The position numbers and the translations under genes are program-made. Shown piece after piece: positions 57,472 to 62,089 of a stretch of 64,000 bases of DNA (positions within the stretch are counted from its first letter, which is position 1; each line of letters starts with the position of its first letter). The notes under the pieces are model-generated. The model saw only the letters and a list, made by a program, of their open reading frames with translations, made no database searches and was not told the origin of the DNA. Source of the stretch: Mucispirillum schaedleri ASF457 (GTDB taxonomy: Bacteria; Chrysiogenota; Deferribacteres; Deferribacterales; Mucispirillaceae); contig NZ_CP097562.1 in NCBI RefSeq assembly GCF_000487995.2, positions 1,361,001 through 1,425,000 of the forward strand, read 5' to 3'.

Positions 57472-57815
57472 AATTACCTCATTAACTATAAGCTTTAAAA
57501 AACTGCTCTGCTTATATATAAAAGTTTGTTATTGTTATTGAGCTGTGGATAACTCAAACAAGTATTAAAAATTATATATTTTATAACAAATTTTATCAAT
57601 AATAAATTGTTACTCTAAACTATCATTTTAGAAAAAATATAATAAAATTTCAAGAATTTTGTTTAAATTTCTTGTAATAATTCAAAAATATTTCAAATTA
57701 ATTATATATTTTACAGGCAGTATAAATGGTGATAACATATATAACTTCATAAATTATTAATAAATAAAATAAATATTTTTAGTAACCTGTGGATAACTTT
57801 TTAATATCTCAAGTA
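57472..57815. other. oriC: Probable chromosomal replication origin (dnaA-dnaN gap)
   Basis: The 344-bp very AT-rich gap has two perfect 9-mer DnaA boxes TGTGGATAA at 57544-57552 and 57788-57796, in the same orientation. The sequence between them is nearly pure A/T (about 57560-57780) and could be the unwinding element. Two boxes are few for an origin, so further weak boxes or a second part elsewhere are possible. It also carries the dnaN promoter region. Confidence 0.7.
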
Positions 57816-59200: not shown

Positions 59201-60115
59201 TTAGAAAAAGGCAGAAATATCTATTCCTGCAGAATAGCCTATACCTGTGCTGCTGTTATTAAATAACTGTACCTGTTTAGATACATAATTATGACCATCT
59301 ATTATAAATTCCACATAAGGACTTATTCTTACTATATCTTTTATTGTAAGGCTGTATCTAAAACGAGCAGCTATTCTATCTATATAATATTTTTCTTGTT
59401 CACTGTAATATACATCTTTTATAAGGTTTGAAAGTTTATATACATCATTTTCCATTTCAAACTGCAACTGGAAAATATTACTTTTATTTACTCCAAGATT
59501 AAGTGAAAAAAATACATCAATAACAGGCACATATTTAAACTCTATTGATGAAAACTTTAAAAAATCTACCTTAAAGTAAGTTAAAGGAAGCCCAAATATA
59601 ACATTTACACCGGGCTTATTATATTCATATCTTATAACAGGAAGTGGATATCCGTCTAAAAAATCTCTGCTTGTAGAATACTCTATACCTAAATACAGCC
59701 TTGAATAATAAGGCAGTGCTTTTCCTTTTATATTTTCATATTCTGTTACATGCTGAAATATTCTAAAAGCATAAAACACATCAAAATCAAGTAAATTAAG
59801 TGATGTAAAAGGCTTGTCGCTGGCAGATGTTAAACCAAAGCCAGCCCAGTGACTGCCTGCTTTATATCCATAAGTTAAACCAACATGAGATAAAATATCC
59901 TGCCCCAGCACCTGTTTAAATTCATATCCAAACTGATGAGGAGTGCTTGTATGAAGCCCTGACACTTCAATAGTATGTGTATCATAATTTGCAGTATCAA
60001 GCCACCTGTATTTTACATCAAGCCCTTCATAAGGCTTATATAATGCATTAGATGCATAACTGTTAAAATATGTTAATAATATAATAAATAAAAAGAATAT
60101 CTTTTTATTCATCAT
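59201..60115 (-). CDS. Outer-membrane beta-barrel-like protein
   Basis: A signal peptide (MMNKKIFFLFIILLTYFNSY, cleaved near A22) is followed by alternating amphipathic strands rich in aromatic residues: HTIEVSGLHTSTPHQFGYEF, HVGLTYGYKAGSHWAGFGL, YYSRLYLGIEYSTSRDFLDG, AARFRYSLTIKDIVRISPYV, and a terminal strand ending in phenylalanine (IGYSAGIDISAFF). This pattern and the C-terminal F are those of outer-membrane barrels (DUF6268-like proteins are similar in layout). Function unknown. It overlaps the upstream PEP-synthase-like gene by 11 bp and is followed by dnaA 20 nt later. Confidence 0.7.
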   Translation of the reverse strand: MMNKKIFFLFIILLTYFNSYASNALYKPYEGLDVKYRWLDTANYDTHTIEVSGLHTSTPHQFGYEFKQVLGQDILSHVGLTYGYKAGSHWAGFGLTSASDKPFTSLNLLDFDVFYAFRIFQHVTEYENIKGKALPYYSRLYLGIEYSTSRDFLDGYPLPVIRYEYNKPGVNVIFGLPLTYFKVDFLKFSSIEFKYVPVIDVFFSLNLGVNKSNIFQLQFEMENDVYKLSNLIKDVYYSEQEKYYIDRIAARFRYSLTIKDIVRISPYVEFIIDGHNYVSKQVQLFNNSSTGIGYSAGIDISAFF

Positions 60116-61934
60116 CTACCTGAAAAAGAGTATTTTTTTCCACTGCAATATTTTTCAAAAACAGTGGCGCAAACCTTATGCCAGTCCATAAAGGAATATT
60201 ATTCAGCACTGCAAATTCACAGGCATAAGAAAGGGGTGTAACATTTTCTAAAATCATACCCTTTGCATTTTTATAATTTTTAAGTTTTGTAAAAGGCAGG
60301 TTATAAGCTGCAATAATTTTATCTGTATAATCATTAAGGTTTAAATCAGTTTCTACTTTTCCTTCACAGTTAATTCTGTTAAGTCCGTATACTGCAAACT
60401 GCTTAGTATTTTTATATCTTATTATCATATCTTCTGCTATATGAGCAGTATCTGATAAATCATAAGCATAAATTTCCGGCGGCATAAGCTGAGCTGCATA
60501 TCTTTTATTCCTGCATTTTCTAAAATATACAAGCTCTTTTGTTTCTCCAAAAAGAGTATCATGGTAAAGCCTGCGTATCTCATCATGGTCAAGTAAGAAA
60601 ATATCGTTAATATTGTCAATTTTTCCTTTTGCAGCACCAAGTTCACCTGCTTTTAAAAGTGCCTTTTTAGTGTTTACTACAAAGAAAGCCGTAGTTAAAT
60701 ATAATTCATCTCGCATATCTAAAAGCCTGTGCATATTTTTTACAGCTTTTTTCAGTTTAGATTTCCTTGTAAAAAATGGAAGCTTTTTTAAATACATTTT
60801 TAATTTATCAGTGTTTTTTTCCATATTAAATAAAACTGATGCTGTTTCTGACGAAAAATCAAGATAGTCTGGCATTATCATTTCATCATCTTTATAAAAA
60901 ATAGAATTTTCTCTTGTTTTATATACTGCATTTAATACAAATGATATATTTGGAAATTTTTTAAGCAGCATAGACAAATTATTTATAAATTCAATAGTAA
61001 TGTATTCATATATGATAGTAAGCTGAACAGGAATATCATAGAAAGTTTTTTCAGCAATATTATTAATGTTTACTTTTGATGATAGACTTTTAATTTCTTT
61101 TAAAACTTCATCTATCTCATCAAATGATACAGGAAAAAAAGAATGGTTTAGTTTATCCAGCTTAGATATACCCATTTTTAAAAACAGGTTTGGAGAAAAA
61201 ACACGCCTGTATAATGATTTATTTAGTCCTATTGTATGCATCATTTTTTCAAAAGCAGTCATATTTATATATATTCTGCCATCAACAGACACAACAGATG
61301 GCGATGATGTTTTAAGATTGCATGAAGCAAAAATCGGGTTTAAAATATCAGGCAAGTCACTAAAAAGTGAAGTAGTAAAAAATGAACATACCTGCGGAAA
61401 AAAAGAAGAAAAATATCCAGAAGACAGTATAACTTCTTCATCATATACTCTTGATTTACTTTCACTATATTCAGAAGCAGCAAGTGGTCTTGGTATGGTA
61501 TAGTCTCTCATATCATCTTTAAAAGTTTCTTCAATAGGTGCAGCATATTTTATAAAACATTCATCATCTGATAAGAAAATATCCATTTCAAGTGGAGTTG
61601 CTGCCACTCTTTCTGCTTTAAAAATTGTATCAAGCAGAGTATTTATCTCTGCATTATTTAAATCAGGTCTGCCAGTTATATATCTGATATTATCAGAATA
61701 CTGACCTTTCAATATTATAAATTGTATCTTATCTATAACAGCTGTAAAAAAACCAAAGTTATTATTATAATGAGGATATATTTTTATATCTTTTCCAGTT
61801 ATTTCTACAGGTGTATTATGTTCTATATTATTTTCTTCGCCTGCTTCTTCACTGCTTTGAACATCACCATATATTTTTAAACCTGATTTTCTGAGTAGTT
61901 CAAGAATACTTTCTTTTACTGCTGATTCATCCAT
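60105..61934 (-). CDS. Degenerate PEP-synthase/PPDK-like protein
   Basis: The 609-residue product resembles the rear two thirds of PEP synthase/rifampin phosphotransferase-type proteins. Residues 112-134 (ATPLEMDIFLSDDECFIKYA then API) align by pattern with the end of the ATP-grasp domain (P-x-E-x-x-x...Q-A-R-P-I). Residues 175-228 have the linker-type pattern with DGRIYINMTAF. GELGAAKGKIDNINDIFLLD is like the region before the swivelling domain. Residues 557-585 match the phosphohistidine domain (PLSYACEFAVLNNIPLWTGI), but the catalytic histidine of S-H-A-A is tyrosine (Y570). Most of the ATP-grasp domain is missing. It is probably a pseudoenzyme; function unknown. Confidence 0.65.
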   Translation of the reverse strand: MDESAVKESILELLRKSGLKIYGDVQSSEEAGEENNIEHNTPVEITGKDIKIYPHYNNNFGFFTAVIDKIQFIILKGQYSDNIRYITGRPDLNNAEINTLLDTIFKAERVAATPLEMDIFLSDDECFIKYAAPIEETFKDDMRDYTIPRPLAASEYSESKSRVYDEEVILSSGYFSSFFPQVCSFFTTSLFSDLPDILNPIFASCNLKTSSPSVVSVDGRIYINMTAFEKMMHTIGLNKSLYRRVFSPNLFLKMGISKLDKLNHSFFPVSFDEIDEVLKEIKSLSSKVNINNIAEKTFYDIPVQLTIIYEYITIEFINNLSMLLKKFPNISFVLNAVYKTRENSIFYKDDEMIMPDYLDFSSETASVLFNMEKNTDKLKMYLKKLPFFTRKSKLKKAVKNMHRLLDMRDELYLTTAFFVVNTKKALLKAGELGAAKGKIDNINDIFLLDHDEIRRLYHDTLFGETKELVYFRKCRNKRYAAQLMPPEIYAYDLSDTAHIAEDMIIRYKNTKQFAVYGLNRINCEGKVETDLNLNDYTDKIIAAYNLPFTKLKNYKNAKGMILENVTPLSYACEFAVLNNIPLWTGIRFAPLFLKNIAVEKNTLFQVDDE

Positions 61935-62051
61935 TTATATGAAACCTCACATTAATAACTTTAATCTGAAAAAAGTTAGAATAAAAAACTCTGTAAAATA
62001 ATATAAGAAATAACACACTAATTTATATACATATATAATATGAAATATATC

Positions 62052-62082
62052 AGCTGAACTTAATACACATTTAAGTTCAGCT
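62052..62082 (-). terminator. Hairpin downstream of purC
   Basis: A perfect 12-bp stem AGCTGAACTTAA / TTAAGTTCAGCT with a 7-nt loop ends 8 bp from the purC stop. On the minus strand it is followed by GATATATTTC rather than a strong T-run, so termination efficiency is uncertain. The rest of the 155-bp gap should carry the promoter for the next gene. Confidence 0.65.
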
Positions 62083-62089
62083 AATCATA

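Follow-up and report, generated by a model that had tools for sequence, protein, structure and literature searches.

A Predicted Pseudoenzyme Related to Rifampin Phosphotransferase Is Retained across the Deferribacterales and Lies near dnaA in Mucispirillum

Results

PSL Lies in the dnaA Neighborhood of Mucispirillum

The window, a stretch of 64,000 nucleotides of the Mucispirillum schaedleri ASF457 chromosome, comes from a complete, Mucispirillum-type genome assembled as one contig of 2.35 Mb (hereafter G000) and carries, in order, purC, a gene termed PSL, a barrel gene, dnaA, dnaN, a recF-like gene, and gyrB (Table 1). PSL and the barrel gene overlap by 11 nt, with dnaA next, as the initial annotation had it; its spacing of 20 nt, however, holds for the second ATG of dnaA, the first lying 8 nt beyond the barrel gene. 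Because a strong terminator-like hairpin, likely a terminator, follows purC, a transcription unit made up of PSL, the barrel gene, and dnaA probably starts with PSL. Two perfect TTATCCACA DnaA boxes occur in the dnaA-dnaN intergenic region (window positions 57544-57552 and 57788-57796) and are likely part of oriC, while matches to a looser DnaA-box pattern were not above chance across the whole window.

Table 1. Features of the PSL locus, in window coordinates
Feature	Position	Strand	Basis
PSL, gene for a predicted RPH-like pseudoenzyme, 609 aa	60105..61934	(-)	Open frame, NCBIfam, Foldseek, dN/dS, presence in 42/46 genomes of the order
ATP-grasp C-terminal lobe remnant, residues 45-135	61530..61802	(-)	Profile match to RPH-Lm 267-311, fold, Foldseek, alignment columns
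Central body, residues 151-500, counterpart of the RPH RIF-binding domain	60435..61484	(-)	NCBIfam (377-571), Foldseek
R408-D409, aligned with RPH-Lm Arg666-Glu667 in a weak match	60708..60713	(-)	Profile alignment, alignment columns, residue roles (PMC4844700)
Degenerate swivel domain, residues about 538-609	60108..60323	(-)	Alignment columns, fold, profile match; S569 Y570 against family S-H
Predicted outer-membrane beta-barrel, 304 aa	59201..60115	(-)	Structure model, Foldseek; adjoins PSL in 15/15 f1 genomes
dnaA	57816..59192	(-)	Pfam Bac_DnaA, 6e-53
Terminator-like hairpin between purC and PSL	62049..62085	(-)	15-pair stem; RNA fold -23.4 kcal/mol, z -6.2

PSL Is a Selected Gene of the Order Deferribacterales

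The 609-codon frame of PSL is a real gene under purifying selection. A search of 40 relatives recovered it in 37, as a single copy and with an internal stop in one only, and a profile search found it in 42 of 51 genomes of the phylum, all of them Deferribacterales (42 of 46 genomes of the order), and in none of the five phylum genomes outside that order. It was single copy everywhere but in G034, which gave a second partial match. Forty of the 42 frames are uninterrupted; the copies at G024:C136 and G048:C11 each contain one in-frame stop, from early decay or an error in sequencing. In comparisons of the window with four congeners, PSL had a dN/dS of 0.19 to 0.22, against 0.11 to 0.29 for dnaA and 0.06 to 0.16 for the barrel gene, dnaN, and purC, placing PSL on a par with neighboring dnaA at larger distances. 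Full-length frames and a dN/dS of about 0.2 rule out recent decay or a frameshift, and the initial annotation was right that the intact frame speaks against random decay.

Eleven residues (N59, K76, E155, P212, S213, D359, L405, D409, R478, D492, and G585) were invariant in 28 diverse members, and a midpoint-rooted gene tree grouped members by family of the order, as expected for an inheritance that appears old and vertical. That PSL is a functionless, slowly decaying relic would be in keeping with its degenerate motifs, with its absence from four genomes of the order, and with the stops in G024 and G048; set against this are the uninterrupted frames, the dN/dS values, the residues invariant over the order, and a tree that follows the families, and we regard a relic as exceedingly improbable. 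Genome contigs were pattern-scanned with a narrower profile, since the order-wide one was too divergent; the scan matched only records of Mucispirillum and other Deferribacteraceae, and the plasmid collection searched for PSL yielded zero matches. Beyond the phylum, the restriction of PSL to Deferribacterales is thus provisional, as judged from one pattern scan and a plasmid collection.

PSL Belongs to the Rifampin Phosphotransferase Superfamily

The PEP-synthase-like homology first recognized from motif pattern was confirmed at the level of the superfamily. NCBIfam NF004881 (PEP synthase, PRK06241 group) matched PSL residues 377-571 (E 1e-7), with a score of 30.6 bits that lies below the curated cut-off of 883. 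NF004878 was matched by 18 of 28 PSL members (best 2e-7) and the rifamycin phosphotransferase model by four, and a whole-genome search of G000 with NF004878 picked out PSL. Zero Pfam models scored above their cut-off against the window protein; PF00391 (PEP-utilizers) left it unmatched and reached one PSL member at E 0.19, below the gathering score. Searched against the PDB, the window protein gave only chance NAD-kinase matches with phmmer, and a profile of the non-Mucispirillum members gave one weak match, to the PEP-utilizer domain of pyruvate kinase, in register (E 3).

We also compared an AlphaFold model of PSL with known folds. Confidence in the model was moderate (pLDDT 64.5, pTM 0.62, 14 sequences), and Foldseek returned six matches at E < 0.001 from the PDB library, all of them to RPH-Lm, the Listeria enzyme (E 1e-9 to 2e-7, probability 1.00). 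The TM-scores were modest (global 0.23 to 0.42), as expected for several domains, with parts that can move, in a model of this quality, so that any pocket geometry read from it is provisional. Chance homology is ruled out by the agreement of NCBIfam, Foldseek, and the order-wide evidence. PSL shows the overall RPH fold and a sequence relation to it, and its closest relative is rifampin phosphotransferase (with the HpeH/PpsA-type subunit), rather than PEP synthase proper as originally named.

PSL Has Lost the Catalytic Parts of the Superfamily

Catalysis in the PEP-synthase/RPH superfamily centers on the swivelling phosphohistidine, and the motif Q-x-R-P forms the end of the ATP-grasp domain. 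Nearly all of the latter domain is missing from PSL, as the initial annotation had stated; the surviving piece, however, is larger than the residues 112-134 it proposed and extends over residues about 45-135, judged by the RPH-Lm profile match and the predicted fold (strands 48-133, helix 94-111). This remnant was also matched by ATP-grasp folds in Foldseek and includes the invariant K76 and conserved R84 and E108. Q-x-R-P is replaced, with Y130 and A132 in the window protein (register from the RPH-Lm alignment).

Ser569-Tyr570 aligns with the swivel Ser-His in the motif register and, identically, in the pyruvate-kinase PEP-utilizer profile match, which is weak alone (E 3), so that the replacement of the family His by Y570, noted at the outset, stands. 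Across 37 members, position 570 holds tyrosine most often (22), followed by leucine (5), histidine (4), proline (3), phenylalanine (2), and alanine (1). With six different residues in this column, a conserved Tyr570 is ruled out as a functional residue. The four His-bearing members are scattered, and the closely related Mucispirillum species L007 and L008 differ, H to L, at this position; an exchange of H and L between close species is not how a catalytic residue would be expected to behave. Homology, lost catalytic residues, and purifying selection together support PSL as a conserved RPH-superfamily pseudoenzyme with an intact frame, its inactivity being predicted from sequence, although, with His570 in four members, catalysis may formally persist in single lineages.

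PSL might instead still function within a two-component dikinase of the HpeHI, PpsAB, or CreHI type, taking its ATP-grasp function from another protein and carrying phosphate on another residue or on the occasional His. Its architecture is that of HpeH, which supplies the swivel and substrate-binding parts of the HpeHI kinase and has its catalytic His581 numerically close to 570 (PMC12167813), and PPDK_N proteins are indeed encoded in families f2, f3, f6, f7, and f8. However, the H581Q change abolishes HpeH activity (PMC12167813), while the His is gone in 33 of 37 PSL members and close species carry H or L. Moreover, PPDK_N domains were found in none of the 15 genomes of f1, the family of Mucispirillum, including complete G000, and in none of the f4 genomes; f1 therefore offers no such ATP-grasp partner for PSL. 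Elsewhere, the PPDK_N matches were long proteins (mostly 860 to 900 aa) or fragments rather than stand-alone partners, and a dikinase subunit is accordingly very unlikely.

Both the pyruvate phosphate dikinase-sized and the 866-aa PPDK_N proteins kept by other families are missing from f1 and f4 genomes. The protein of about 866 aa (L058-L068, other families) resembles RecA/KaiC in its N-terminal region, as judged by eye; considered as a direct parent of PSL, it differs in its N-terminal start, again by eye. A single G000 protein exceeded the PEP-utilizer cut-off, with its match at chromosome positions 180005-180220 within a 575-aa frame, which has about the length of PTS enzyme I.

PSL Appears to Retain the Substrate-Binding Body

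R408-D409 falls without gaps on RPH-Lm Arg666-Glu667, at an offset of 258, although the match itself is weak (E 0.55). D409 is present in 37/37 members and R408 in 32/37. In RPH, this pair contacts the product phosphate, holds and positions His825, and is needed for the second phosphotransfer, and changing either residue abolishes rifampin inactivation (PMC4844700). Within the swivel domain of PSL, conservation is highest in the loop that surrounds the lost His (35% mean pairwise identity). The pattern of conservation suggests that the binding site has been kept and that the swivel domain is a putatively docked but noncarrying one.

The same residues bear on whether PSL has acquired a new catalytic activity that dispenses with the phosphohistidine and works through the Arg-Asp pair together with K76, R84, and E108. 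Strong conservation of scattered positions, eleven of them invariant in 28 members, would fit such an activity, but a new active-site motif is not recognizable and RPH is the only significant fold match, so that we consider it unlikely.

The Barrel Neighbor Is Confined to One Family

The 304-aa neighbor has a signal-type N terminus followed by 14 long strands (structure model, pLDDT 54), and all Foldseek matches listed for it are outer-membrane barrels or barrel domains; on this model, it really does appear to be an outer-membrane barrel. The gene adjoins PSL, usually overlapping it, in all 15 f1 genomes (Mucispirillum and two sister genera) but stands beside PSL in no family outside f1, with f4 having distant barrel homologs elsewhere in the genome. 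Hence, of the conserved pseudoenzyme with a barrel partner that had been proposed, the pseudoenzyme is retained across the order and the barrel belongs to f1. Among relatives more broadly the frame is likewise kept, whereas the Tyr (22 of 37 members) and the barrel neighbor are not general. The more widespread downstream neighbor, in four families other than f1, is an ADP-ribosylglycohydrolase gene that resembles the barrel gene in length and position. A barrel in disguise is ruled out, the hydrolase being unrelated to the barrel.

PSL lies directly before dnaA in f4 genus g11, one barrel gene away from it in f1, 4 to 9 kb from it in f8, and at unrelated locations in the remaining lineages. 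The dnaA neighborhood may be ancestral, and any functional link to replication is read from gene position alone. One f4 genome has PSL overlapping an upstream CHAD-domain gene (L038:2186-3598 (+)). PSL could, in principle, be a specific partner of the barrel in an envelope module tied to replication via dnaA, given adjacent and mostly overlapping genes throughout f1, a predicted transcription unit shared with dnaA, and the proximity to dnaA in g11 and f8. Yet the barrel accompanies PSL in no other family, its distant f4 homolog lies elsewhere in the genome, and its signal-type N terminus would place it in the outer membrane whereas PSL has none, making this partnership highly doubtful.

An ADP-Ribosylglycohydrolase Follows PSL in Other Families

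In f2, f7, f8, and two f6 genera, the ADP-ribosylglycohydrolase gene lies directly 3' of PSL, at gaps of -11 to +14 nt. The three paired hydrolases tested gave full-length PF03747 matches above cut-off (E 1e-42 to 6e-55), and the metal-binding motifs S/T-D-D-T and G-G-D-x-D-T are kept; the protein is apparently an intact ADP-ribosylglycohydrolase. A profile of the paired clade (E below 1e-150) found it in 13 genomes, directly after PSL in 13 of 13 and never without PSL. Since 29 genomes have PSL without this clade, the two are not obligate partners. The other hydrolases of these genomes, several of them DraG-like and the rest separate paralogs, fall outside the paired clade. Members of that clade (L039, L041, L043, L046, L050, L051, L053, L055, and L057) also have a conserved N-terminal V-S-D-C motif.

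Mapped on the PSL tree, the pairing requires three changes, as would result from a single gain followed by losses in f3 and in some of f6. Because the tree is rooted at its midpoint, it does not distinguish a gain on the other side from a pairing that was already ancestral and then disappeared on the f1/f4 side. On the second reading, Mucispirillum has lost the paired hydrolase. The literature searched describes no pair of a PSL-type pseudoenzyme and an ADP-ribosylglycohydrolase.

Discussion

We favor, as the probable reading, that PSL is a catalytically dead protein of the RPH/HpeH type that binds a ligand and serves as a scaffold or regulator. It would descend from a single-chain RPH-like dikinase from which the phosphohistidine and the greater part of the ATP-grasp domain have disappeared; what persists is the central body that binds substrate, along with a swivel domain left without phosphate to carry. 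A small molecule may occupy a pocket formed by the docked swivel domain and the central domain, in which Arg408-Asp409 is kept. Ancestry, the loss of catalytic parts, selection, retention throughout the order, and the pairing of genes are observed here, and ligand binding, a physical partnership, and a role in regulation are inferred from them. In lineages with the downstream ADP-ribosylglycohydrolase, PSL would probably be its partner, presenting or sensing the hydrolase substrate, whereas in Mucispirillum, where the hydrolase is absent, it would act alone or with another partner.

Because PSL pairs with a hydrolase of ADP-ribosyl bonds, gene order suggests that its ligand or bound protein is ADP-ribosylated or nucleotide-like. 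A more specific proposal, tentative and rather unlikely, is that PSL and its dedicated hydrolase form an unrecognized two-protein system of the Deferribacterales, in which PSL binds a protein or small molecule that is ADP-ribosylated (or N-glycosidic, nucleotide-like) and presents it to the hydrolase, or regulates that enzyme, with Mucispirillum keeping the binding half only, beside dnaA.

PSL would illustrate clearly how an enzyme can become a binding protein: its substrate-binding body would have lasted as long as a bacterial order although both the source and the carrier of phosphate are gone. The fixed hydrolase pairing gives a testable function to a family without a Pfam match, and the genomes that bear PSL include the gut commensal Mucispirillum, with the gene in the dnaA neighborhood there.

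Comparison with Known Systems

In RPH, residues 1-314 form the ATP-grasp domain and residues 327-754 the domain that binds rifampin, and the swivel domain at the C terminus carries His825 (PMC4844700). PSL shares this order of parts with RPH-Lm (PDB 5FBS/5FBT/5HV1), its best structural match: the end of an ATP-grasp domain, a large central substrate-binding domain, and a C-terminal swivel domain. Arg-Asp in PSL is a candidate counterpart of the Arg-Glu pair of the apex subdomain. Unlike RPH-Lm, its ATP-grasp part amounts to about 90 rather than about 314 residues and lacks Q-x-R, His825 is replaced, and identity in the structural alignment is 11 to 12%. With PEP synthase and PPDK (PF01326, PF00391), PSL shares superfamily membership by profile match, but it reaches no Pfam cut-off and differs in domain order, the His domain being central in those enzymes (PMC4844700).

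The paired hydrolase resembles the PF03747 proteins DraG and ARH in its full-length match and metal-binding motifs, while, unlike the DraG-like hydrolases of the same genomes, it forms a separate clade, at about 26 to 32% identity, that always occurs with PSL. HpeH, PpsA, and CreH, the subunits of two-component aromatic dikinases that bear the swivel and bind substrate, are like PSL in having no complete ATP-grasp domain, a substrate-binding body, and a swivel motif near the C terminus. They keep the catalytic His and have a separate ATP-grasp subunit (PMC12167813), whereas PSL has lost the His, retains a piece of ATP-grasp domain in its own chain, and, in f1, occurs in genomes without a PPDK_N protein. 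In functional architecture, HpeH is the nearest to PSL.
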